A stretch of DNA of 39,231 bases. Source: Actinomycetota bacterium. Lineage in GTDB: Bacteria; Actinomycetota; Acidimicrobiia; Acidimicrobiales; JAMDDE01. Numbering within the stretch: the first letter of the stretch is position 1; every line of letters begins with the position of its first letter. The notes below the pieces were generated by a model. That model ran no database searches, had not been told where the DNA came from, and saw nothing but the letters and a program-made list of their open reading frames with translations. This document shows, piece after piece, positions 478 to 35,595 of the stretch. Location: contig JAMDDE010000063.1 of assembly GCA_023489235.1 (NCBI GenBank), forward strand, positions 1-39,231, in the 5' to 3' direction. A program made the position numbers and the translations under genes.

Positions 478-2847
478 GTGTTTAAAGCTATTCCCAGCCG
501 CCGTCATTCCTCTGATTCCATGGTATCTGTATTCCACAAGAGGATACGTCGTACCACCGCGGTTGAAATTGGCTTGATTGTGATATGGATAGCGATCGAA
601 TCACTGAGCCCATTTGGCTTCATGAGACAAATCTCTCTTTTGCCAATTAGTTTATTGGCATTAATTATTATAATCTTATCTATTCGATGGCACAAGCCCA
701 CTCCTTCATGGCCGTGGTGGACGATAAGTATTGCACTATTCTTGTTTTTGGTCGGAGCAACAGCTAGGGCAGAGCTTCATACCTTGGGCAACTTCTCCCC
801 TCAGCGCTCATTCCTCCCCGATCTGCTCACCATGCCTGGATATCTGTTGCTCGGGATCGGGCTAATTGGTTTTTGGCATTCAATGAGTATCAAGACTCGT
901 TATCACGATGGAGTATTGCTCGACGGTCTGATGGCAGGGCTTGCTTTACTAGCTCTTACCTGGGCATATGTCATAGAGCCGGTGGAGAGCCACTCCATCT
1001 CTCTCGGCGTTTATCTCGTGCTCTCGTTGTACCCGGCCCTGTCTGCGTTCCTGCTCATGGTTACCGTGCGCCTTGCCTTCAGCCCGGGAACTCGAAGAAC
1101 CACTGCCTACTGGTTGTTGATGGCCACCATGGCCTCCATGCTCATTGGAGACGTCATTTATATGCTGGTGGAGACCCATCTGATCACTTTGGCGGATCCT
1201 CTTAGGGACCTTCCTTACGCTCTGGCTTACCTTGGTGGGGCCAGTACAGCTCTGTCCTACTCGATGACGAGTCTCACCCGCCCAGTAACCTTCCGAGGGG
1301 AAGTTCCTCTGTTCCCTCGAATCGTATTGGTAGCAATCAGCCTGTTCATAGCTCCCCTCTTGATCATAAAGGATACGGCTCGCCCAACGGACAGGATCAT
1401 CTTGTTCTTGATAGCCGTGGCACTCGTAGCTGTAGCCGTACTCCGGCTCGTTAAAGCACTCCACCAAGCTGAGCACTCGGAACGCCAGCTCTCCTATCAA
1501 GCTCTGCACGACCACCTGACCAACCTGCCCAATCGCATCTTTCTCCGCAGCCACTTCGAGGACACAGGCCGATATCAATGGAGCTTGCCCAGCTCATTGG
1601 CTGTGCTCTTCTTGGATCTGGACCGCTTCAAACTGGTCAATGACATGCTCGGCCATACTTTGGCCGACGAACTCCTGGTTCAAGTAGCCGAGCGTCTGCA
1701 ACAGAATGTCAGACCAGGCGACATAGTGGCTCGAGTGGGGGGCGATGAGTTCGTCATAGTATTACTGGATATCAACCAATCGGATGAGGCGTTGGCGACA
1801 GCAAATAGAATTCGTAACTGCCTACGAGTTCCCTACGTGATCCACGACGCAGAGCTGTACGTATCGGCGAGCATAGGGATCGCTTTCAGCTCCGACCACG
1901 AGGATGGGGACTTCGAGAGCTTGATCAGGGATGCGGACATCGCTATGTACCATGCCAAGCAGGCTGGGAGAGACGCTGTGTTCGTCTTCAACATGTCCAT
2001 GCATATCATGGCCACTGAGAAGGCTGAGCTGGAGAACGACCTACACCATGCCCTCGGCAAAGGTCAGCTCTACCTCTTGTACCAACCATTGGTCTCCCTT
2101 CTGAACGGTCAGGTCGATGGTTTAGAGGCGCTGGTACGGTGGACTCATCCCAAGTTCGGAGAGCTGTCGCCTACGCGTTTCATCAAACTTGCCGAGGAGA
2201 CCGGCGTCATAGCCGAACTAGGGAAGTGGGTCATGGAAGAGGCTTGTTACCAGTTCGCCGAGTGGCGCAGTGCAGGGATCGATGTGGGAAACATCCAGAT
2301 AGGAGTGAACGTATCCGCACTTCAGTTGCACGATCCGCTCTTTGTAGATCAAGTAAAGGAGACCATCAATGCCTATAACATACCCGCCAGCTCGATCTGT
2401 CTCGAGATCACCGAATCCTCGTTGATGGATGATCCCGATCATTCTATCTCTGCCCTGGCAGCACTCCGAGAGCTCGGAGTGCACTTAGCCATCGATGACT
2501 TCGGCACAGAGTACTCCTCGCTCGCTTACCTCAAACGCTTCCCAGTTGATTATCTGAAGATAGATCGCTCCTTCGTAGACAGTCTGGTGGAGACAGGTAG
2601 TGCCGATGAGAGCTTGATTGCAGCAATAGTGGCCATGGCCAAAGCACTCGGTATCTCCACCATTGCCGAAGGTGTGGAACGACCTGAACAAGTTGATCGC
2701 TTGATCGGACTAGGATGCGAGATAGCGCAGGGATTCTTTTACTCCCGCCCGGTCCACGCAAGCAGGATACCTCGGCTTATTCGTTCTCGTTCACTGAGTT
2801 CCTCGGCGGATGCGGAACACATAGCCCATGGTTCGACCCAGGTATAG
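478..2847 (+). CDS. Membrane-bound GGDEF-EAL cyclic-di-GMP enzyme
   Basis: This 789-residue protein should make and/or degrade cyclic di-GMP at the membrane. Roughly residues 25-325 hold about eight to ten hydrophobic spans, acting as an integral sensor region of unrecognised type. A diguanylate cyclase domain follows (about 340-500): the GGDEF signature is at 421-425, preceded by RPGD five residues upstream, which fits an intact inhibitory I-site. The phosphodiesterase domain (about 515-770) carries E-A-L at 550-552, then NVSALQL, EITESSL, DDFG, KIDRSF and AEGVE, so the metal-binding and catalytic set looks complete. Both domains therefore appear active. DDFGTEYSSL has Glu where Gly is usual. 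The start is GTG 478 with AAAGG immediately upstream; ATG at codon 16 is an alternative. No gene overlaps it, and the leader is structured. Confidence 0.93.
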   Translation: MFKAIPSRRHSSDSMVSVFHKRIRRTTAVEIGLIVIWIAIESLSPFGFMRQISLLPISLLALIIIILSIRWHKPTPSWPWWTISIALFLFLVGATARAELHTLGNFSPQRSFLPDLLTMPGYLLLGIGLIGFWHSMSIKTRYHDGVLLDGLMAGLALLALTWAYVIEPVESHSISLGVYLVLSLYPALSAFLLMVTVRLAFSPGTRRTTAYWLLMATMASMLIGDVIYMLVETHLITLADPLRDLPYALAYLGGASTALSYSMTSLTRPVTFRGEVPLFPRIVLVAISLFIAPLLIIKDTARPTDRIILFLIAVALVAVAVLRLVKALHQAEHSERQLSYQALHDHLTNLPNRIFLRSHFEDTGRYQWSLPSSLAVLFLDLDRFKLVNDMLGHTLADELLVQVAERLQQNVRPGDIVARVGGDEFVIVLLDINQSDEALATANRIRNCLRVPYVIHDAELYVSASIGIAFSSDHEDGDFESLIRDADIAMYHAKQAGRDAVFVFNMSMHIMATEKAELENDLHHALGKGQLYLLYQPLVSLLNGQVDGLEALVRWTHPKFGELSPTRFIKLAEETGVIAELGKWVMEEACYQFAEWRSAGIDVGNIQIGVNVSALQLHDPLFVDQVKETINAYNIPASSICLEITESSLMDDPDHSISALAALRELGVHLAIDDFGTEYSSLAYLKRFPVDYLKIDRSFVDSLVETGSADESLIAAIVAMAKALGISTIAEGVERPEQVDRLIGLGCEIAQGFFYSRPVHASRIPRLIRSRSLSSSADAEHIAHGSTQV

Positions 2848-2970: not shown

Positions 2971-3003
2971 AAACAATGACCGTATCGTATAAAACAATGA
3001 CCG
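2971..3003 (+). repeat. Two direct repeats AAACAATGACCG, 21 bases apart
   Basis: AAACAATGACCG occurs at 2971-2982 and again at 2992-3003, exactly 21 bases apart (about two helical turns), so both copies lie on the same DNA face. They sit about 80-110 bases upstream of the SpeD-like gene. This suits tandem binding of an activator, but no protein can be assigned. Confidence 0.5.
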
Positions 3004-3024
3004 CATAGCTACACAAATTAGCTG

Positions 3025-3074
3025 GTGAAATAGCTTTTATCACTTAATGTGGTAAAATCGCTACATTTTATCAC
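3025..3074 (+). promoter_or_regulatory. Array of TTTTATCAC half-sites (putative operator) before the SpeD-like gene
   Basis: TTTTATCAC is present at 3035-3043 and 3066-3074, and the inverted form GTGGTAAAA at 3049-3057. A weaker inverted half-site starts at 3025 (GTGAAATAG). The pair 3049-3058/3065-3074 is a 9-of-10 inverted repeat with a six-base centre, ending 8 bases before ATG 3083. Repeated, oriented half-sites this close to the start argue for a specific repressor or activator of the two-gene unit downstream. Confidence 0.55.
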
Positions 3075-3082
3075 TGTTCGAG

Positions 3083-3496
3083 ATGACACTGAGTGTTTTT
3101 CGGTCTAACATGTTCGCTATGCAAAGGGATCAGTGTTTGCTCAGTGGGGGGGAGTTTCTGGATCTCGCACCCATGATTTATCGACAACGACTTGTTGTCG
3201 AAGGGAGATGCATGACATCAATAGATGCAGCATCAATTGAGAGTTATTTGTCGGAGCTTTCCAATGTATGCGGTATGCGTACCATCATGGAACCAGTGAC
3301 TCATCGCTCCGATCTTTACGGTTGGGCTGGATGGATCCATTGGGAAACCTCGGGAGCGCATTTCTACGCCTGGGAGGTACCTATCAGGTTCTTCAGTGTT
3401 GACATTTACACTTGCAAGCCATTTGATCCAAATGCCGTCGTGGAGTTCACCCAAGCATTTTTCAATGCAACCGAGATAGTGTCGAAGGAGTTCTAG
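3083..3496 (+). CDS. S-adenosylmethionine decarboxylase (SpeD)-like small protein with altered active site
   Basis: The 137-residue product, mainly residues 33-125, follows the bacterial SpeD fold: an LVVEG first strand, a helix (about 50-63), and then SGAHFYAWE (90-98) leading to VDIYTC (106-111), matching the family's ESHxSIHTWPE...VDVFTCG. SpeD proenzymes cut themselves before a serine to make a pyruvoyl group. Ser90 is at that place and Cys111 matches the catalytic Cys, but the preceding Glu is Thr, the proton-donor His (five residues after Ser) is Tyr95, and there is one extra residue before VD. It may therefore be a neofunctionalised decarboxylase, a non-processing homologue, or a partner protein. 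ATG 3083 lacks a clear ribosome site; Met31 (3173) would match the usual SpeD start. The stop is two bases before the next gene. Confidence 0.65.
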   Translation: MTLSVFRSNMFAMQRDQCLLSGGEFLDLAPMIYRQRLVVEGRCMTSIDAASIESYLSELSNVCGMRTIMEPVTHRSDLYGWAGWIHWETSGAHFYAWEVPIRFFSVDIYTCKPFDPNAVVEFTQAFFNATEIVSKEF

Positions 3497-3498
3497 TC

Positions 3499-4311
3499 AT
3501 GCCTGGATTGCACAGTAATACCTATGCCGACACATTGAGTTCTCGAGCTCTTCTCGCCATGGCAGAGGAGCTGATTGAGAGGAACGCCGAGGAGGCATTT
3601 GGGGCATACTTCTTCACCTCTAACAGTCCATTTGCCGAGTTGGCTCGTCAAGTGGAACGTTCTGTCTTCCTCGAGGCATTCGGGAATACCGAAGAGCAAT
3701 TGCACTACGAATACGATCGGTACGAACCTACAAGCGTCTTCTTTTGCATACTGGATCAGCGACGCAAGGTACCTGCGGGTATGGCTAGAATCATTCTTCC
3801 CTCTGCTTACCCTGGATTCAAAAGCTTGAACGACATAGAGCCAGTGTGGGACAGGTCAGTGGATGAACTGATTGGCCAGGATGCCTTATCTCTCTCACGT
3901 ACCTGGGATCTAGCTACCTTGGCCGTGGACAAGGCCTATCGAGGCGCAGCAGCAATGGGTCTCACCAGTCTTGGCCTTTACCAATCTATAACACGAACAG
4001 CCCAACGGTGTGGAATAGATTGGGTGGTAGCCATCCTCGACCTCGTGGTCTACAGGATGTCACGTTGGAAACTTCATACACCTTTTCGTGGTTTCAACGG
4101 TGCCCCACCACTCCCATACCTTGGATCAGCCGCCAGTCTGCCAGCATGGTGTCGACTCAGTGAGTGGGAAGAGAGGCTCAAGAAATCTGATCCAGTTTTG
4201 TGCGAAGTGATCTTCAGAGGAAGCGGTCTTGAGACAGCCTTGCGACCACTAGACGTTGATGCTGCCTGGAGAGAGATCAGTTCAATCTCAGGGATAGGGC
4301 TTACCTATTAG
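3499..4311 (+). CDS. LuxI/FeeM-like GNAT-fold acyltransferase (putative N-acyl signal or N-acyl amino acid synthase)
   Basis: The 270-residue protein resembles autoinducer synthases of the acyl-homoserine-lactone or N-acyl amino acid type. VERSVF (52-57), then E-Y-D-R-Y-E (71-76) recall the R..vF and E-x-D-x-y-D motifs of LuxI. PAGMARIILPS (92-102) matches the central strand with the conserved Arg. TWDLATLAVDKAYRG (135-149) followed by a helix and CGIDWVVAILD is the acyl-donor half of the GNAT fold, and the FRGFNG region (196-201) ends the core. The family joins an acyl chain from acyl-ACP or acyl-CoA to an amine donor, often SAM. AAGGAG (3486-3491) inside the preceding gene gives a good ribosome site, so the two genes are translationally coupled. 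The substrate is unknown; a generic acetyltransferase is the main alternative. Confidence 0.6.
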   Translation: MPGLHSNTYADTLSSRALLAMAEELIERNAEEAFGAYFFTSNSPFAELARQVERSVFLEAFGNTEEQLHYEYDRYEPTSVFFCILDQRRKVPAGMARIILPSAYPGFKSLNDIEPVWDRSVDELIGQDALSLSRTWDLATLAVDKAYRGAAAMGLTSLGLYQSITRTAQRCGIDWVVAILDLVVYRMSRWKLHTPFRGFNGAPPLPYLGSAASLPAWCRLSEWEERLKKSDPVLCEVIFRGSGLETALRPLDVDAAWREISSISGIGLTY

Positions 4312-4358
4312 AACCTGCCCTATTAGAACCTGCATACAGGTTCCTGAGGGGCAACCCC
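4304..4358 (+). repeat. 15-base tandem duplication over the stop codon, followed by small hairpins
   Basis: CCTATTAGAACCTGC at 4304-4318 is repeated exactly and without gap at 4319-4333; the first copy contains the stop codon of the acyltransferase gene. The second copy's GAACCTG (4326-4332) pairs with CAGGTTC (4337-4343), and GGGG/CCCC (4348-4351/4355-4358) forms another small stem. Together they could slow or end transcription, although no T-run follows. Confidence 0.45.
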
Positions 4359-6130: not shown

Positions 6131-6886
6131 TCAATACCTGACCCCTATCCTCCGCCAGCGTCGTCCACTTGTACCAGGCTCATTTGGTCGAGCAGCTGCT
6201 CGTTCACGATAAACCACAAACGGCCGCCATAGATACCAAAGTGGGTAGCTCCATGCATGTACCAGCCGACTGAAAGGCCATACAGCAAAGATCACCCATG
6301 CGGCTGTGGCATGAAGCTGATAGAGAAGAGGCGCATGGGCGATAACGGCAACGTTGGGGTTGCCAGTGAACAGAGAGCGGAACCAGACAGAGACGCTTTG
6401 GCGATAGTTGTAGCCCGAGCCGAGCAGATTAACCCCTACTGTCTCGGCAAAGCCAAGAGCAATGACAATAGCCAAAAGGATTAGTGCCACCCAATCAACA
6501 GGAGAGGTGGTGGCTCGCACTCGCGTGATGAAGATACGTCGAGCTGCAAGGATGATGACGCCAATGACAATTCCGACTGCAGCTGCTGTTCCAGCTCCTG
6601 CAGAGAACCAACGATAAGTACTTTCCGAGATGCCGATAGCCTTTGTCCAGCTCTCTGGAATGAGGATGCCGATCACATGCCCAGCTATGGCAGCAAAGAC
6701 AGCGTAGTGGAATACAGGTGACCCCCACTTGAGCAGACGTTTCTCCTGCAACTCGGTTGACCGGCTGGTCCAGCCGAACTGATCGTAACGCCACCGCCAT
6801 ATGTGACCTATGACGAAGGTGGCAAGTGCCAGATAAGGCAGGACAGCCCACCAAAACACCTGCCACCCTGTGACCGAGGTGTTCAT
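6131..6886 (-). CDS. narI: Respiratory nitrate reductase, gamma subunit (cytochrome b)
   Basis: This 251-residue membrane protein takes electrons from quinol and passes them through two b hemes to NarH. Five hydrophobic spans are visible. Four histidines match the known heme ligands by spacing: H60 and H70 (ten apart), and H192 and H210 (eighteen apart, in QLHATAAW and RLVHAWS). The C-terminal WSYPLWYLWRP is also typical. Its ATG overlaps the narJ stop by four bases, so the two are coupled. The C-terminal tail is short and basic. Nothing suggests loss of function. Confidence 0.95.
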   Translation of the reverse strand: MNTSVTGWQVFWWAVLPYLALATFVIGHIWRWRYDQFGWTSRSTELQEKRLLKWGSPVFHYAVFAAIAGHVIGILIPESWTKAIGISESTYRWFSAGAGTAAAVGIVIGVIILAARRIFITRVRATTSPVDWVALILLAIVIALGFAETVGVNLLGSGYNYRQSVSVWFRSLFTGNPNVAVIAHAPLLYQLHATAAWVIFAVWPFSRLVHAWSYPLWYLWRPFVVYRERAAARPNEPGTSGRRWRRIGVRY

Positions 6887-7596
6887 GACCCATCCTCACT
6901 TGTGACCGACGTTCCAGGAGTTGGGAACGAATCGAACTGGTTACCTGGCTGCATAGGTCGAGCAGGGAATCCAGGTGCTCCACGAGTTGGGAGTAGTTCG
7001 AGCCCGACTTCTTCTATGGGTGGTATAGGTGGTTCAGCCGTCTTCAGCCGTAACGAAGAGGTCAGACGATCGAACCTCCCGAACCCTACTGCATAACCGA
7101 TGGCTTCGAGTACCTTGGCGTAGCGATTCGATGCCATCTCGAGTCGATGATAAAGGGTTTGCAGCACCGATCGATACTGCGATAACACCTTCCTCCCGGC
7201 TTCGCATACAGCCGCGAACTCCAACAACGCAGGGAGAAAGTCTGGGAGCTCTCCTGGGACGAGTTGGAATCCTGCTTCGTGGTAGGCATCTACCAAGGCA
7301 GCCAGAGCCATACCTCGTTGACGGGTGTCGCCTAGTGCATGATAGGTGAGGTGAAGGGCGTGCTGATCGTTCAAATCAAAGGTGGAGACGTAGTAAGCAG
7401 CCGCTTCCTCGAGCGGTATAGAAGCTAACCAGGTACGCGTATCCATCAAACAATCACGGGCTCGACTACTGGACAGGCGGCAAAGGGCATCCTCGACGGA
7501 CAAGAGATCTTTTTCGAACTCCTGAGCAGAAGAGCCGGGATAGCTGAGCAATACGGAGGCACAGCCAAATACCACCACGGCCTCATTTCTCCTCAC
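6883..7596 (-). CDS. narJ: Nitrate reductase assembly chaperone
   Basis: The 237-residue protein belongs to the NarJ/TorD-type chaperones that help insert the molybdenum cofactor and Fe-S clusters into NarG and hold the complex until it docks on NarI. The mainly helical N-terminal 170 residues include YYVSTFDLNDQHALHLTYH, with the DL-x3-x-LHLTYH-type motif of the family, and LPDFLPALLEFAA. The last 60 residues are Pro/Gly rich and less conserved. It overlaps narH by four bases upstream and narI by four bases downstream, so it is made as part of one narGHJI message. It is not expected in the final enzyme. Confidence 0.93.
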   Translation of the reverse strand: MRRNEAVVVFGCASVLLSYPGSSAQEFEKDLLSVEDALCRLSSSRARDCLMDTRTWLASIPLEEAAAYYVSTFDLNDQHALHLTYHALGDTRQRGMALAALVDAYHEAGFQLVPGELPDFLPALLEFAAVCEAGRKVLSQYRSVLQTLYHRLEMASNRYAKVLEAIGYAVGFGRFDRLTSSLRLKTAEPPIPPIEEVGLELLPTRGAPGFPARPMQPGNQFDSFPTPGTSVTSEDGS

Positions 7597-9266
7597 GGCA
7601 TCTCACCTCCAGCAAGTTTCCAAACAGGAGATGGCGATGCCTCGCCTACCCTTAGATGTTTTCTGCCCTTCGAGTCACGGCCGAGGAACAGTCCCTTCGT
7701 TTGCTCCCCAGATCGTGATTCATGTGATTCAGCACCTCTGGACAGGATGGCTGCTCCGCCTAGGAAGTGCAGAGCCTCATCGCTCGAACTACCTGGTGAA
7801 CCCAGAGCCTCATCGCTCGAACCGCCACCACTGAAGGAATGCTGAGCAAGAAGACGTCCCGCCTCCTCTGCGTGCGCCGGCGGTATCACGAACCGGTCCT
7901 TGTAACGCGCTATGGCCAGTAAATTGAAGAGTTGATCCAGGTCGTCATAGCTGAGGCCTACTTCACTAGGGTCGATAGTCGACTCTTCCCCAAGCTGCTT
8001 GGAGCGCATAACCGTTCGCACCGTAGCCAAGCGTCGAAGGGCGTTGGCCACGGGCTCGACTTTTCCTGCAGTAAAGAGGTTGGCGAGATAGGAGAGGGGG
8101 ATGCGGAGCTTGTCGATACTGTTGAGGATGGCATCTAGCTCAGAGCCGTTGTGATTGGAGTGGTGAACACGGGTTGTGGCATCGACAATTGGGGAGAGAG
8201 GTGGGATGTACCAAACCATGGGGAGTGTGCGATACTCCGGATGCAAGGGCAAGGCAACTCGGTGACGAACTATGAGAGCATACGTTGGCGATCTGCGTGC
8301 CGCAAGGATCCAATCATGAGGAATACCTTGGCGTTCAGCTTCAGCAGCTACTTCTTCATCGTTGGGGTCAAGGAACACAGATAGTTGCGCTTGGTAGAGA
8401 TCTTGCGGATCCGGAGTTGTGGCTACGGCTGTAACCCGGTCAGCATCGTAGAGCATCAAGCCTAGATAGCGGATCCTTCCTACACACGTCTCCGAGCAGA
8501 TAGTAGGCAGACCACTCTCGATACGAGGAAAGCACAGGGTGCACTTCTCCGACTTGCCAGTACGATGATTGAAATAGACTTTCTTGTACGGACATCCCGA
8601 TACGCAAAACCGCCAACCACGACAACGATCTTGATCGACGAGTACGATACCATCCTCTTTTCTTTTGTACATGGCCCCCGAGGGACAACTGGCTACACAT
8701 GAAGGATTCAAACAGTGCTCGCAGATACGCGGCAAGTAGAACATGAACACGGACTCGAAGTTGAGCAATACCTCTTCGGCCATGGACTCGATATTTGGGT
8801 CATTCATGGCTCGTTGAGGTGCGCCTGCCAAATCGTCTTCCCAGTTGCTTCCCCATTTTGGGACCATCTCCCTTCCCGTCAAGGCTGAGCGTGCCGATAT
8901 CGAAGGTGAGCTGGTTCCAGCAGGTGCATTGATCAGTTTTGCATAGTCGTAGGAGATCGGGTCGTGGTAGTCGTCGATGGTAGGGAGATCAGGATTCCAG
9001 AAGATCGAGGCGAGGCGACGAAGTCGACTTCCGCTGCGCAATGAAAGTCGTCCTTTGCGATCAAGGGTCCATCCTCCCTTCCAGTAGGCTTGGTCCTCGT
9101 ACCTGGCTGGGTAGCCTAGACCAGGTTTGGTCTCCACATTGTTGAAGTAGACGTATTCGGTTCCCGGCCGATTCGTCCAAGTTTGTTTGCAAGTGACCGT
9201 GCAAGTATGACAACCAATGCACTTGTCCAGGTTCATGACCATGCAGACCTGGGCCATGATTCTCAT
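7593..9266 (-). CDS. narH: Respiratory nitrate reductase, beta (Fe-S) subunit
   Basis: This 557-residue electron-transfer subunit carries four Fe-S clusters linking NarI heme to NarG. Cysteine groups are visible in order: CIGCHTC-TVTC (16-26), CEHCLNPSCVASCP, then CRGWRFCVSGCP, where Trp replaces one Cys as in the [3Fe-4S] cluster of other NarH proteins, followed by CTLCF and CSETC. The final 70 residues are unusual: a duplicated SSDEALG-type segment and a charged Ser/Gly-rich tail extend the protein beyond the roughly 510 residues of E. coli NarH. The start ATG shares one base with the narG stop (TGATG). Met4 (MAQVCMVM) is an alternative start. Confidence 0.95.
   Translation of the reverse strand: MRIMAQVCMVMNLDKCIGCHTCTVTCKQTWTNRPGTEYVYFNNVETKPGLGYPARYEDQAYWKGGWTLDRKGRLSLRSGSRLRRLASIFWNPDLPTIDDYHDPISYDYAKLINAPAGTSSPSISARSALTGREMVPKWGSNWEDDLAGAPQRAMNDPNIESMAEEVLLNFESVFMFYLPRICEHCLNPSCVASCPSGAMYKRKEDGIVLVDQDRCRGWRFCVSGCPYKKVYFNHRTGKSEKCTLCFPRIESGLPTICSETCVGRIRYLGLMLYDADRVTAVATTPDPQDLYQAQLSVFLDPNDEEVAAEAERQGIPHDWILAARRSPTYALIVRHRVALPLHPEYRTLPMVWYIPPLSPIVDATTRVHHSNHNGSELDAILNSIDKLRIPLSYLANLFTAGKVEPVANALRRLATVRTVMRSKQLGEESTIDPSEVGLSYDDLDQLFNLLAIARYKDRFVIPPAHAEEAGRLLAQHSFSGGGSSDEALGSPGSSSDEALHFLGGAAILSRGAESHESRSGEQTKGLFLGRDSKGRKHLRVGEASPSPVWKLAGGEMP
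7769..7823 (-). repeat. 33-base in-frame duplication in the narH tail
   Basis: CAGAGCCTCATCGCTCGAAC occurs twice, 33 bases apart, in the 3' part of narH. The spacing is exactly eleven codons, giving repeated Ser-Ser-Asp-Glu-Ala-Leu in the protein. It points to a recent in-frame slippage or duplication in a region that tolerates length change. Confidence 0.7.
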
Positions 9267-12200
9267 CAGAAACGCACCTCCTCCGAGCGTCGCCGAATTA
9301 CGGCTACCTCATCACGTTGTGAGCCTGTAGGACCGTAGTAGTTGAAACCATAGGAGAGCTGCGCATACCCTCCGATCAGGTGCGTTGGCTTCATCACGGC
9401 TCTAGTGAGCGAGTTGTCCGTTCCGCCATGGAGCTCGGACACCTCTGATATGGGCATCTCTATATGTCGATCCACAGCGTGGTACTGAAGAACGGTCCCT
9501 GATGGCACTCGATGAGTTGTAACCGCTCGGGCAACAGTGACTCCGTTTCTGTTGTAGATCTCCACCCAGTCGTTGTCTGCTATGTTCAATCGAGAGGCAT
9601 CCATATGGTTGACCCAGACCACGGGCCCACCACGGAACAAGTTGAGCATGTGCAGGTTGTCTTGGTACTCGGAGTGAATTGACCACTTGGAGTGCGGCGT
9701 CAAGTACCGCACGACCAACTGGCCCTCCCCTGCCTCTCCCGAATCGCCGCGGAGCTGATCCTCGAAGATCGCCAACATATCCAGGGGAGGACGGTAGGTC
9801 GGCATCCACTCACCGCACTCGGCAATCCAGTCATGATCCAAGAAGAAGTGCTGACGACCGGTCAGAGTATGCCACGGCTTCAACCGTTCGACATTGATGG
9901 TGAACGGAGAGTACCGGCGCCTCTCCGACTCGCATCCTGACCATTCCGGAGAGGCGATCACTGCTCGAGGCTGGGCTATGGTGTCGACAAAGCTAATTCG
10001 GTCTCCTGCTCGCTCATGGGCTAGATCAGCCAGACGGACTCCTGTTCTAACCTCTAGGTTCTCGAAGCCAGCCACGGCCAGACGACCGTTGGTAGTACCT
10101 GACATGGCCAGGATGGCCTCGCAGAACAGATCGTCACGGTCTACGCGAGGCCTGCCATCAGCTACCCCACCATGCACTAAGCCATTGCGCGAGCGCAAGT
10201 AGTCAACCTCCTCCCCAATTGGGAGGTGAACACCCTTAGTGGTAGCACCAAGTTCTTCGACCAGTGGTCCTAGGGAACCAAACCTATCGGAGAGGTGAGG
10301 ATAGTCCCGTTCTACCACCACCAACCGAGGCATGGTCCTGCCCGGTATCGGTAAGCACTCGCCTTTGCTCCAGTCGAGAGCTTTCCCTCCTGGTTGAGCA
10401 CACTCATCGGGGCTGTCATGAAGTAGTGGAACCGCCAGTACATCTCGACGAATCCCCAGATGCTTCACTGAAAGGCGCGAGAAGACGGCAGCCAGGTTGG
10501 AGAAGATGTCGAAGTCTGTTCGGGCCTCCCACGGAGGAGCAATAGCAGGGTTGAAGGAGTGGACGAAGGGATGCATGTCCGTGGAGGATAGATCGTGTTT
10601 TTCGTACCAAGTAGCTGCTGGTAGAAGGACATCGGCATAGATGCCGGTAGAGGTCATACGAAAATCGATGTCCACCAGGAGGTCGAGCTTGCCTACTGGA
10701 GCCGGCTCCCTCCAGATGAGTTCGGATGGTCGAGATCCTTCAGGACTTTCTCCAGCGGCAACAGCATTCTCGGCACCGAGGAGATGGCGCAGGAAGTACT
10801 CGTGACCTTTCCCAGACGAGCCGAGCAGGTTGGAGCGCCACACGGTAAGAACTCGAGGGAAGTTGACCGGGTTATCAGGATCGCTTGCAGCGAAATGTAG
10901 CCTTCCAGCTTCAAGCTCTTCTACTACGTAATCGCCGATCTCCTTGCCAGCTTTGCTTGCCTGATCGGCCAATTCCACTGGATTACGATCGAATGCAGGG
11001 TGAGAGGCTACCCAGCCCAACCTAGCTGCGTAAGCATTGAGGTCAGCAACGGTGCGTCCTCTGAATCGCCCGTCCCCCAATGGGGAGGACAGCGACTCCG
11101 CCGTAGCTCTCTCGTAACGCCATTGATCGGTAGCCAGATACCAGTACGGAGTGGAAGGCATATGACGAGTAGGGCGCACCCAGTCATAGGCGAAGGCGAG
11201 AGTAAACCAACCAGTGAACGGTCTCACCTTCTCTTGACCTACATAGTGAGCCCAACCTCCTCCGTTCACTCCCTCGCACCCACATAGCATGAGCAGGGAG
11301 AGGAAGGTTCTATAGATCTGGTCGGAGTGGTACCAGTGGTTGGTGCCTGCCCCCATGGCAATCATGGAACGACCACCGGATCTCTCCGCGTTGCTGGCGA
11401 ACTCCCGGGCTATTCTTACTACCGTAGAAGAAGGCACCGAAGTGATCGACTCTTGCCATTTGGGAGTATATGGAACCGAAGGGTCCTCATAGGACGAAGG
11501 CCAAGTACCCGGGAGTCCTTCCCGACTTACCCCATAATTGGCCATTACTAGGTCGAACACGGTGGTGACCCACTTACCGGCTATCTGTAGAGCAGGTACT
11601 CCCCTGTGCAGTATCCCGCCCCCTGCACCTTCTCCCTGGTCGAATCGGGGCAGGTCAACCAAAAGGGCCTTCCAGCCACTGCGACCATACAAGCTGAGAC
11701 TTGGTTGGATGCCGCCGAGGTCAAGGTTCCATCGACCCTTGCCCTCTTCACTCCAGCGGAACCCTACTGACCCATTAGGAACGACTGGCTCTCCGGTAGC
11801 GGAATCCAGCATAGTGGTCTTCCAATCCGCCCCCTCGCCCTCATCCCCGAGATCAGCAGCGGTGAGGAAGTGCCCGGGCACATATGCACCCTCTCTCTCC
11901 TCCAAGGTTACAAGAAACGGCAAGTCAGTATAGGTACAAGCGTAGTCTTCGAAGTACTTGACCCTACGTTCTCGGTAGAACTCGTTCAGTATCACATGCC
12001 CCATGGCCATGGCTAGGGCTCCATCGGTACCCGGCGCCGCAGCCAGCCATTCGTCGGCAAACTTGGTGTGATCGGAGTAGTCAGGAGAGACTACTACGAC
12101 CTTTTGTCCCCGGTAGCGAGCCTCGGTCATGAAGTGAGCATCAGGAGTCCTGGTCATAGGCAGGTTGGTGCCCCAAATGATCAGGTAACTGGCATTCCAC

Positions 12201-12949
12201 CAGTCTGCTGACTCGGGTACATCCGTCTGGTCGCCAAAAACCTGGGGCGACGCTATCGGAAGGTCAGCATACCAATCGTAAAAGGATAGAATCACCCCAC
12301 CCAAGAGAGAGTAGAACCGGGTTCCTGCTGCATAGGAGGCCATGGACATAGCTGGTATCACTGTGAATCCAGCCGTACGATCAGGCCCATAGGTAGCAAT
12401 GGTGTGAACATGAGCAGCAGCTATCAGCTCGAACACTTCCGACCATGACGCTCTCACCAAGCCACCTTGTCCACGTGCTCGTTTGTAGCGAGAGGATAGC
12501 TCGGGATCAGAGGTTATCTCTGCCCAGGCTTCCACCGGATCCCCAAGTCGCTTCTTGGCTTCTCGGAAGGCATCCAACAGCACCCCGCGCACATAAGGAT
12601 AACGAACCCTGGAGGGAGAGTAAGTGTACCAAGAGAAGGAGGCTCCTCTTGGACAACCCCTCGGTTCGTACTCCGGAGAGTCAGGGCCAACCGAGGGATA
12701 GTCCACTGCTTGGGTCTCCCAGGTGATGATTCCATCCTTGACGAACACCTGCCAAGAGCAAGAGCCTGTACAGTTCACCCCATGAGTCGAGCGCACCACC
12801 TTGTCGTGGCGGTATCGCTCCCGATAGAACTCCTCGGCTCCTCTCCCTCCACGACGGTGAAGCTCGCGACCATCGTTGGAAACAGTACCGGGTAGGATAT
12901 ACTTGGCTCTCCGAACAAGACCGCTGTCAGCAACCTGGTTTGATTTCAC
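9266..12949 (-). CDS. narG: Respiratory nitrate reductase, alpha (molybdenum) subunit
   Basis: The 1227-residue catalytic subunit reduces nitrate to nitrite at a Mo-bis-MGD centre. H56-x3-C60-x3-C64...C99 is the His-coordinated FS0 cluster of NarG (HGVNCTGSCSW, then RGCPRG). QTDVPESADWWN places the likely Mo-ligand Asp at about 243. The rest follows the family over the full length, including the C-terminal domain with VWVNHMDASRLNIADNDWVE. This is the membrane-bound, cytoplasm-facing Nar type, not periplasmic Nap; no Tat twin-arginine leader is seen. Start GTG 12949 is chosen as the first in-frame start; its ribosome site is weak. A promoter and operator lie about 110 bases upstream. Confidence 0.97.
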   Translation of the reverse strand: MKSNQVADSGLVRRAKYILPGTVSNDGRELHRRGGRGAEEFYRERYRHDKVVRSTHGVNCTGSCSWQVFVKDGIITWETQAVDYPSVGPDSPEYEPRGCPRGASFSWYTYSPSRVRYPYVRGVLLDAFREAKKRLGDPVEAWAEITSDPELSSRYKRARGQGGLVRASWSEVFELIAAAHVHTIATYGPDRTAGFTVIPAMSMASYAAGTRFYSLLGGVILSFYDWYADLPIASPQVFGDQTDVPESADWWNASYLIIWGTNLPMTRTPDAHFMTEARYRGQKVVVVSPDYSDHTKFADEWLAAAPGTDGALAMAMGHVILNEFYRERRVKYFEDYACTYTDLPFLVTLEEREGAYVPGHFLTAADLGDEGEGADWKTTMLDSATGEPVVPNGSVGFRWSEEGKGRWNLDLGGIQPSLSLYGRSGWKALLVDLPRFDQGEGAGGGILHRGVPALQIAGKWVTTVFDLVMANYGVSREGLPGTWPSSYEDPSVPYTPKWQESITSVPSSTVVRIAREFASNAERSGGRSMIAMGAGTNHWYHSDQIYRTFLSLLMLCGCEGVNGGGWAHYVGQEKVRPFTGWFTLAFAYDWVRPTRHMPSTPYWYLATDQWRYERATAESLSSPLGDGRFRGRTVADLNAYAARLGWVASHPAFDRNPVELADQASKAGKEIGDYVVEELEAGRLHFAASDPDNPVNFPRVLTVWRSNLLGSSGKGHEYFLRHLLGAENAVAAGESPEGSRPSELIWREPAPVGKLDLLVDIDFRMTSTGIYADVLLPAATWYEKHDLSSTDMHPFVHSFNPAIAPPWEARTDFDIFSNLAAVFSRLSVKHLGIRRDVLAVPLLHDSPDECAQPGGKALDWSKGECLPIPGRTMPRLVVVERDYPHLSDRFGSLGPLVEELGATTKGVHLPIGEEVDYLRSRNGLVHGGVADGRPRVDRDDLFCEAILAMSGTTNGRLAVAGFENLEVRTGVRLADLAHERAGDRISFVDTIAQPRAVIASPEWSGCESERRRYSPFTINVERLKPWHTLTGRQHFFLDHDWIAECGEWMPTYRPPLDMLAIFEDQLRGDSGEAGEGQLVVRYLTPHSKWSIHSEYQDNLHMLNLFRGGPVVWVNHMDASRLNIADNDWVEIYNRNGVTVARAVTTHRVPSGTVLQYHAVDRHIEMPISEVSELHGGTDNSLTRAVMKPTHLIGGYAQLSYGFNYYGPTGSQRDEVAVIRRRSEEVRF

Positions 12950-33513: not shown

Positions 33514-35595
33514 ATGCCGGACGATCATTCTGTGACTATCTCTTCCAGCTCGCTTACTCCAGATGCAATCATGCACAGGAGCTTCCGTACCGTTCGCAAG
33601 GGCTTCGATCCAAATGAGGTAAGAGCATTCCTAGAGGTTGTCGGACGTGAGTTGAGAGGACTGATCGACAAGGAACGCGAGTTGCTCTCAGCATTGACAG
33701 ATGCTGAACGTAGAGCAGCAAACCCCGTCCTTGACGATGCAACCCTAACAGCTGCGCTTGGCCAGGAGGCAGCAAGGGTACTGAGTGCTGCACACGATGC
33801 AGCTAAGGAAGTTCTAACCAGAGCTGAAGAAGACGCCAGTCGACTGAGGTCTGAGACTGAGGCAGAAACAGCTCAAATACGACACGAGGCTCTTGGCTTG
33901 CTTGCCGAAAAGCGGGAAGAAGCAGAGATGATGGTAGCAGAGCTACGTAGCTCTGCAGAACAGGAGGCCCACGACATCTTGGAAACCGCAAGAGAAGAGG
34001 CAGCTCTCCTCAGGGCGGAAGCGCAGAGGGATGCAGAGGCGTTGATAGCAGAAGCCAAAGAGTCGAGGGTTTCCATCTTGTCAGATCTGTCCAAGCGACG
34101 TCAGGCGATCCAGTTGCAGATTGAGCAGTTGAGAGCGGCAAGAGATAGTCTCATCCACTCGTTGGACAAATCGCGTCAAGCGTTCGAGGAATCGGCCATG
34201 CTACTCAATACCGCTGACGAGACTGCTCGACAAGAGGCCAACAAGGTTATCCGCGAAGCAAAGGAGGCTGAGGAGGAGGGAGGGAAAGAGGAATCGTCCC
34301 CCTTCATTGGTGCAAACATGGAGGAGGGTGAGCCTTCCATGAAAGACTCTCCTGATCCAAAGATCGCTGCAACCACTCCACTACCACCACCAACGGGTGA
34401 GCCTTCCATGAAAGACTCTCCTGATCCAAAGATCGCTGCAACCACTCCACTACCACCACCAACGGGTGAGCCTTCCATGAAAGACTCTCCTGATCCAAAG
34501 CGACATTTGGAAGATGTATTTGCTCGCTTACGTAGCAGTGTTATGTCCCAAGCGGCTAAGCCTAGAACAACCTCCAAAGAATCTGTTCCTGAAGGTAGTG
34601 CAACTGTCGAAAGACTCTCTGCCTCGGTTATCCAGTTTGAGCGTCACTCCGCTCACGAGGCTGAATCGACAAGTTCAGCAAGTAACAGGGATGAAAATCC
34701 CTCTTCAACAGATCTAGCCAGCGAGTTGGCTGGGACGACCACAAAAGAGAACGGATCGGTTGGCACAGTTGGTGACGTTCGTCACTACGAGAGTACGGTT
34801 GATGACACCTCTCCAGCTCATGAAGAAACAGAAATCGATCCAACAGTTGCAACAACTACTGCAGTGGACGAAGATCGCCTCGAACTAGCCTCCCAGAAGG
34901 ACGATGGTTCAGGGGAGGATGGTTCAGGGGAGGAAGCCTTGCTGCGCAGGAATGAAGCACTCGATGTGTTAGTAACCGGCCTAGTACGCAAACTGAAGAG
35001 AATCTTGCAGGATATCCAGAACGAGCTATTGGACAACCTCCGGGTATGGGCTGGACAATCCTCTTCTAGCAGCACTGATCTGTTAGTCATTGGCGAACAA
35101 TACTTGGAGCAGTTGCACGGTGCCGCCTCTGCCTATCTGACAGAAGCAGCTAACGCTGGTGCCAGGTTCTTTGGTTACAAGGACGCTGCCACAACGGTAG
35201 AGCTATCTAGCTTATGCGATGAGTTGGCTCGGGCAGTAGCAGATCCCCTCAAGGACAAGTTGGACGAACTAATTGCTGATAGCGGAGATCAAGTCACAGA
35301 CGAGTCCAACCTCGCTGATCAAGTAAGCGCTATCTTCCGTGATTGGAAAGGGGACCGTTTGGACGAGATCGTCACCGATCATTTGATCACAGCATTCTCC
35401 ATGGGATCCTTGTCCTCGGTTGGACAACAAGCATTCGTAAGATGGATCGTCGACGATGGAGCGTCGAGATGTCCCGATTGTGATGACAACGCTTTAGCTG
35501 GTGCTCTACCTATTGGAGAAAGTTTTCCTACCGGCCATGCTCATCCACCAGCACATGCTGGGTGCAGGTGTCTACTAGTGCTCGAATCATCCTAG
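33514..35595 (+). CDS. DivIVA-domain protein with internal repeats and a phage-minor-head-like C-terminus
   Basis: The 693-residue protein opens with a DivIVA domain (about 20-55, FRTVRKGFDPNEVRAFLEVV), then a long coiled coil to about residue 260 (regular Ala/Glu/Arg heptads), which would bind curved membrane at poles or septum. Next come perfect tandem repeats (272-329) and an acidic, probably disordered linker to about 480. The last 190 residues are folded and end with CPDC (653-656), GHAHPPAHAGCRC (674-686): Cys/His spaced as in the C-terminus of Mu gpF-like minor head proteins, probably a metal site. This combination is unusual. DivIVA in actinobacteria directs polar growth, fitting the mreB and PDZ-Lon neighbours. 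Confidence 0.82.
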   Translation: MPDDHSVTISSSSLTPDAIMHRSFRTVRKGFDPNEVRAFLEVVGRELRGLIDKERELLSALTDAERRAANPVLDDATLTAALGQEAARVLSAAHDAAKEVLTRAEEDASRLRSETEAETAQIRHEALGLLAEKREEAEMMVAELRSSAEQEAHDILETAREEAALLRAEAQRDAEALIAEAKESRVSILSDLSKRRQAIQLQIEQLRAARDSLIHSLDKSRQAFEESAMLLNTADETARQEANKVIREAKEAEEEGGKEESSPFIGANMEEGEPSMKDSPDPKIAATTPLPPPTGEPSMKDSPDPKIAATTPLPPPTGEPSMKDSPDPKRHLEDVFARLRSSVMSQAAKPRTTSKESVPEGSATVERLSASVIQFERHSAHEAESTSSASNRDENPSSTDLASELAGTTTKENGSVGTVGDVRHYESTVDDTSPAHEETEIDPTVATTTAVDEDRLELASQKDDGSGEDGSGEEALLRRNEALDVLVTGLVRKLKRILQDIQNELLDNLRVWAGQSSSSSTDLLVIGEQYLEQLHGAASAYLTEAANAGARFFGYKDAATTVELSSLCDELARAVADPLKDKLDELIADSGDQVTDESNLADQVSAIFRDWKGDRLDEIVTDHLITAFSMGSLSSVGQQAFVRWIVDDGASRCPDCDDNALAGALPIGESFPTGHAHPPAHAGCRCLLVLESS
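34327..34500 (+). repeat. 69-base perfect tandem repeat in the DivIVA gene
   Basis: Two full copies (34327-34395, 34396-34464) and a 36-base partial third (34465-34500) encode a 23-residue unit, GEPSMKDSPDPKIAATTPL then PPPT. The DNA copies look identical, so the expansion is recent or homogenised. The unit is a multiple of three and can vary in copy number without frameshift. Confidence 0.9.

Follow-up and report, generated by a model that had tools for sequence, protein, structure and literature searches.

A SpeD-like gene coupled to a LuxI/FeeM-type acyltransferase gene: a strong candidate for a chemical-signal system not yet described in bacteria

Why should a gene for a SpeD-like protein lie directly ahead of a gene for a LuxI/FeeM-type acyltransferase, close to a gene for a c-di-GMP enzyme? 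This arrangement occurs in the window, the whole 39,231-nt stretch of an Actinomycetota genome that was analyzed here. An earlier note had proposed that the two genes form an undescribed small-molecule pathway. We find that the pair is a strong candidate for a bacterial system of chemical signaling that has not been described before. In our main reading, the two proteins, which are occasionally fused, act as one enzyme that produces an N-acylated small molecule, and an adjacent membrane receptor senses this product; we give this reading a probability of roughly 0.47.

The SpeD-like protein (137 aa; 3083-3496, forward strand) was assigned by the PF02675 profile, its predicted fold and residue alignment. 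Two nucleotides separate its stop codon from the start of the gene for a LuxI/FeeM-superfamily N-acyltransferase (270 aa; 3499-4311, forward strand), which was assigned by family profiles, predicted fold and residue alignment; both reading frames are located where the earlier note had put them. The conserved core of the SpeD-like protein, like most of its homologues, begins at about residue 27; translation may therefore really start downstream of 3083. A palindrome (TTTATCAC-N5-GTGGTAAA; TTTATCACTTAATGTGGTAAA) at 3036-3056 ends 26 nt before the SpeD-like start, and TTTTATCACT from this palindrome is found again at 3066-3075, also before that start. Judged from sequence, the palindrome and its repeated TTTTATCACT are a possible operator; the chance expectation of the palindrome is 0.02 per window, for a pattern that was chosen only after being seen. 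Direct duplications were observed at 2971-3006, where AAACAATGACCG(T/C)AT occurs twice with 21-nt spacing, and by eye at 4304-4333, where CCTATTAGAACCTGC occurs twice across the acyltransferase stop codon. Elsewhere in the window, a nitrate reductase-type cluster (NarG/H/J/I-like by eye) occupies 6131-12949 on the opposite strand, downstream of the pair, and at 33514-35595 there is a DivIVA-like open reading frame (by eye) whose central part carries the tandem peptide repeat GEPSMKDSPDPKIAATTPLPPPT.

In order to survey the pair elsewhere, one genome per GTDB species was scanned with the SpeD-like alignment, which yielded 134 relatives, 80 of which were kept for counts. The hosts of these 80 loci are Acidimicrobiia, Geodermatophilaceae, Micromonosporaceae, Actinotalea and other Cellulomonadaceae, Cryobacterium, a Mycolicibacterium, and several Saccharibacteria MAGs. 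The acyltransferase gene lies directly downstream of the SpeD-like gene in 78/80 loci (77 on the same strand by the scan, and L044 by profile), a co-occurrence far beyond chance that answers the survey called for by the earlier note. The two genes usually overlap or lie within 5 nt of each other (gap mostly -7 to +5 nt). Distances among the SpeD-like proteins correlate with those among the acyltransferases (r = 0.82; permutation maximum 0.10), and in one locus (L003/G005) the two are naturally fused into a single 388-aa protein. Searching 395 genomes of the class by profile, independently of the scan patterns, gave 14 matches: 12 with the partner, one at a contig end, and one distant relative. 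Thus, 12 of the 13 class members found by profile carry the acyltransferase, the 13th being cut by the contig end. A phylum-wide sample gave four matches in 397 genomes, and the small number of matches in both samples indicates that the distribution of the pair is patchy. A search baited with the acyltransferase alone retrieved no related loci; the conserved SpeD-like alignment did. Phage or viral relatives were searched for, and none were found. Absences in a PF02675 search of the window's own genome were not used as evidence, because that search misses even the SpeD-like gene of the window. Many of the genomes are MAGs; the Saccharibacteria synteny is repeated in independent bins, with some contigs exceeding 240 kb. 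The conserved operon, the co-variation and the natural fusion bear out the functional coupling that had been suggested for the SpeD-fold and LuxI/FeeM-like proteins, and we are nearly certain that the two act together.

Departures from this arrangement were also observed. In G615 (L129, about 7945-10935), a SpeD-like gene of the family has no acyltransferase nearby and is followed by an amidohydrolase-like gene (by eye). In a Saccharibacteria locus (L080:4000-7560), a protein encoded on the opposite strand, which weakly matches LPG_synthase_C, stands in place of the usual acyltransferase.

The SpeD-like protein matches AdoMet_dc (PF02675; E 3e-10; 40.8 bits vs a cut-off of 25), as do 53/53 family members tested, and its score against the TIGR03330 equivalog is below cut-off (17.2 vs 75.65 bits). 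The best PDB match of its AlphaFold model is Thermotoga maritima AdoMetDC (E 3e-7; TM 0.77 by target), and 1tmi and 1vr7 are the top fold matches of this AF2 model, which points to a class 1b AdoMetDC fold. Ser90, the counterpart of the pyruvoyl-forming Ser63 of T. maritima, and Cys111, the counterpart of the catalytic Cys83, are present in 76/76 aligned members. The position of T. maritima His68 is occupied by Tyr95 in all 76; the canonical Ser55 is replaced by Ala and Glu62 usually by Thr. His74, His93 and Glu40 are likewise invariant and would form a putative active site with Ser90, Cys111 and Tyr95. The invariance of Ser90, His93 and Tyr95 is partly selected for, since the peptide patterns of the scan contained these residues; Cys111, Arg34, Arg36, Glu40, His74 and Asp107 lay outside the patterns, and profile and tblastn searches recovered distant relatives that also keep the Ser/Tyr/Cys set. 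T. maritima SpeD requires Ser63, His68 and Cys83, with His68 being essential for self-processing, and neofunctionalized SpeD relatives include SpeDA (ADC) and SpeDC (ODC) (PMC10407285). The present family shares its fold and the conserved Ser63 and Cys83 positions with AdoMetDC/SpeD, SpeDA and SpeDC, but differs from them in the His68-to-Tyr change in every member, in its acyltransferase partner, and in having no spermidine synthase partner in 20 genomes. None of these 20 pair-bearing genomes has a spermidine synthase over the speE cut-off (four have weak matches); this cut-off is strict (of 10 control genomes that have matches, only four exceed it), and the absence is therefore likely, short of proven. 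It argues against spermidine biosynthesis. To our knowledge, no function has been assigned to SpeD homologues in which both His68 and the spermidine synthase partner are missing.

A wider SpeD-like family was also observed (L108:1498-1854 on the reverse strand, L109:4995-5351, L110:4995-5357 and L111:4995-5351), 34-38% identical where aligned, with the consensus DLxPxIxRQRLLIEG...SGIxxYxW...YTCK and the same His68-to-Tyr change. Its hosts are Halioglobus, Nostoc and Acaryochloris plasmids, and another genome of the window's class. Its members have no LuxI-like partner, and the Acaryochloris gene is placed after a tandem GNAT gene. The plasmid matches belong to this distant family.

With His68, Ser55 and Glu62 replaced across the family, self-processing of the SpeD-like protein is not assured, and the protein could be non-catalytic; these residues do not support a standard pyruvoyl enzyme. 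The alternative that survives best builds on this. It holds that a catalytically dead AdoMetDC fold serves as subunit or regulator of the acyltransferase, which by itself makes an N-acyl amino acid, and the AdoMetDC prozyme of trypanosomes is a precedent for such a role. The 1:1 operon and the fusion are compatible with a complex of this kind, and the lack of a spermidine pathway, as judged from the speE search, would fit as well. Against it, Ser90, Cys111, Tyr95, His74, His93 and Glu40 are all invariant, and Ser/Tyr/Cys are kept at 34-38% identity in proteins without a LuxI-like neighbor, which is unlike a decayed pseudoenzyme. We regard this alternative as unlikely. The retention of Ser90 and Cys111 together with the change of His68 to Tyr95 suggests either a pyruvoyl enzyme with another helper residue or a fold retained for another role; we put the chance of active decarboxylation by the SpeD-like protein at slightly short of even.

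A c-di-GMP enzyme directly upstream of the pair, also part of the earlier description, was confirmed by Pfam (GGDEF 154 bits, EAL 250 bits). This 789-aa protein (478-2847, forward strand) has intact GGDEF and EAL motifs and about eight N-terminal transmembrane segments (hydrophobic, residues 26-325), and is a candidate receptor and output. In 39/80 loci, a homologue whose membrane domain is related is found no more than 500 bp from the pair, being convergent downstream in 23, co-directional upstream in 13, divergent upstream in two (L018 and L024) and co-directional downstream in one (L026); neighboring genes were defined by simple gene calling with some starts wrong, and the L018 orientation was read by hand. 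The GGDEF-EAL gene directly follows the fusion gene in G005, is convergent in G045, and is divergent upstream of the SpeD-like gene without an acyltransferase in G615. With nine GGDEF genes in the 2.17-Mb window genome and roughly 2,000 genes in all, we estimate a chance adjacency of about 1% per genome. Gene order is inherited among close relatives, so the loci are less independent than their number implies, and the four orientations across separate clades of the tree are the stronger argument. The GGDEF-EAL sensor domain is present also in relatives without the pair.

In place of the GGDEF-EAL protein, a 7TM-GAF-histidine kinase is encoded downstream in 9/80 loci (eight Saccharibacteria and Mycolicibacterium sphagni). 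It consists of a multi-TM N-terminus followed by GAF-HisKA-HATPase, with a Pfam HisKA_7TM match in M. sphagni, and a response regulator gene lies upstream in several of the Saccharibacteria loci. In L080, one of these loci, the kinase follows the SpeD-like gene that has no usual partner, and the multi-TM domain and histidine kinase are separate genes. The idea of one sensor swapped between GGDEF-EAL and histidine kinase outputs was rejected, as no relationship between the membrane domains of the two could be detected. Some Actinoplanes have a Ser/Thr kinase downstream, and we weighed it as a third type of receptor; where directly adjacent, it has no clear membrane segment. Neither receptor type lies beside most of the Actinoplanes/Paractinoplanes and Cryobacterium pairs. 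Gene order at the 39 GGDEF-EAL and nine histidine kinase loci shows a genetic linkage of the putative synthase to a candidate receptor. LuxM-LuxN is a known pair of autoinducer synthase and receptor. As in LuxM-LuxN and LuxI-LuxR, an acyl synthase lies here beside a candidate receptor, in Saccharibacteria a multi-TM histidine kinase, but the LuxI SAM-site residues are missing, there is an extra SpeD-like subunit, and the commonest receptor candidate is a c-di-GMP enzyme. A 2020 survey describes LuxI homologues adjoining sensory kinases in CPR genomes and predicts pairs of synthase and kinase (PMC7567580). These resemble the present loci in combining synthase and kinase in candidate-phyla bacteria, but the survey's passages on such pairs mention neither SpeD nor GGDEF-EAL/c-di-GMP. 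Its 18 cases may overlap the Saccharibacteria loci found here.

The same neighborhoods bear on a second alternative, namely that the pair makes an envelope aminolipid or other structural N-acyl compound, while the GGDEF-EAL protein or kinase regulates the pathway or the biofilm matrix and no product is sensed. Enzymes of the FeeM fold also make lipids, and many Actinoplanes-type loci have no receptor. Moreover, the best NCBIfam match of the acyltransferase family, in 31/50 members (best E 4e-10), is exosort_acyl (TIGR03694), the PEP-CTERM/exosortase-associated acyltransferase, which is not a signal family; the window protein matches it at E 2e-6, with 27.5 bits vs a 112-bit cut-off. The recurring neighbors are nevertheless membrane sensors, rather than envelope, export or lipid genes, and Saccharibacteria, which make few lipids of their own, retain the pair together with a sensor kinase. 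A structural product is, in our judgment, improbable.

A placement of the second protein among unrelated acetyltransferases, which the earlier note had named as a refutation, was not borne out by the family profiles and the fold comparison. Its Acetyltransf_5 score is sub-threshold (18.5 vs 22.4 bits). Among 50 family members, 10 match Autoind_synth (PF00765) at E <= 0.1, all sub-threshold with a best value of 2.8e-5 and the window protein not among them, and five match FeeM (PF21926) at E <= 0.1. The acyltransferase model (pLDDT 92.9) has FeeM 2g0b as its best PDB match (E 8e-8; TM 0.74-0.75 by target); LasI, BjaI, TofI and EsaI come lower among the best 50 fold matches, amid general GNAT acetyltransferases. 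Glu53, Phe57, Tyr72, Asp181 and Tyr207 are invariant family-wide. LuxI enzymes have eight invariant residues, including Arg24, Trp34 and Arg100. By LasI alignment and column counts, only Phe28 and Arg68 of these are strictly kept, two are conservatively changed, and four are replaced (Arg24 by Glu, Trp34 by Asn, Arg100 by Thr/Ser, and Asp45 mostly by Gly). With half of the LuxI invariants absent and the fold closest to FeeM, SAM use and AHL production are unsupported, and a reaction as in FeeM/TyzA, in which an amino acid or amine is N-acylated, is the better model. The partner is in all likelihood an N-acyltransferase. A true LuxI-type AHL synthase with a SAM-handling SpeD partner, which the LuxI-like fold and the sub-threshold Autoind_synth matches might recall, is disfavored as highly improbable by these replacements and by SpeD processing residues that are not all kept. 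TyzA (Rv2336), an actinobacterial enzyme, N-acylates Tyr/Phe, and its structural neighbors match those of the window acyltransferase (PMC10404671). FeeM and the TyzA of the mycobacterial tyz cluster share the LuxI-type GNAT fold with the present protein, and TyzA is likewise actinobacterial and clustered with tailoring enzymes; its partners, however, are a nitroreductase or cyclase, in contrast to the SpeD-fold partner and adjacent membrane sensor seen here.

Our main reading of an N-acylating enzyme with an adjacent receptor starts from the observed gene pairing, fusion, predicted folds, conserved residues and neighborhood, from which we infer decarboxylation, acylation, a product, and sensing of that product by the neighbor. 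The SpeD-fold protein would provide or modify the amine moiety; most likely it would decarboxylate an amino acid through a Ser-derived pyruvoyl group, with Tyr as helper instead of His. The FeeM/LuxI-type partner would then move an acyl chain from acyl-CoA or acyl-ACP onto the amine, and the neighboring multi-pass membrane protein would sense the product. Sensing would alter the c-di-GMP level where the neighbor is the GGDEF-EAL protein; in the lineages with the 7TM histidine kinase, it would instead alter how far a response regulator is phosphorylated. Whether the product is a signal for the neighboring receptor we consider an even bet. The fullest version is doubtful. It would be a new signaling class, common to actinobacteria and Saccharibacteria, in which an N-acyl amine autoinducer is the joint product of a pyruvoyl (Ser/Tyr/Cys) enzyme derived from SpeD and an acyltransferase of the FeeM/LuxI type, and is sensed at the membrane by interchangeable receptors (8TM GGDEF-EAL or 7TM histidine kinase). 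We take Acidithrix to belong to the Acidimicrobiia. Acidithrix sp. C25, an acidophilic iron oxidizer, secretes the infochemical 2-phenethylamine, which leads to aggregation of Acidiphilium (PMC7142476). This compound might give a clue to the amine chemistry, although nothing points to the pair as its source.

No published description of the SpeD-acyltransferase pair was found in open-licence literature, in keeping with its proposal as undescribed. The parts are known folds, and their combination and wiring appear to be new. The pathway first suggested for the locus thus stands in its coupled pair, its c-di-GMP link and its lack of prior description; it is not supported in its SAM substrate, for which the missing LuxI residues, the His68 replacement and the speE result leave no support in either protein, and neither is a reading of the SpeD-like protein as a standard pyruvoyl enzyme.

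According to a 2016 review (PMC4748050), Actinobacteria have no established autoinducer of the LuxI or acyl-amide type that is matched to a receptor. The present family would add a branch of SpeD neofunctionalization beyond ornithine and arginine decarboxylases. It also offers culturable test cases (Blastococcus, Actinoplanes and Cryobacterium) in which to study a new signal chemistry that may be connected directly to c-di-GMP. Saccharibacteria live on actinobacterial hosts, and the presence of the pair in them raises the question of signaling between epibiont and actinobacteria.
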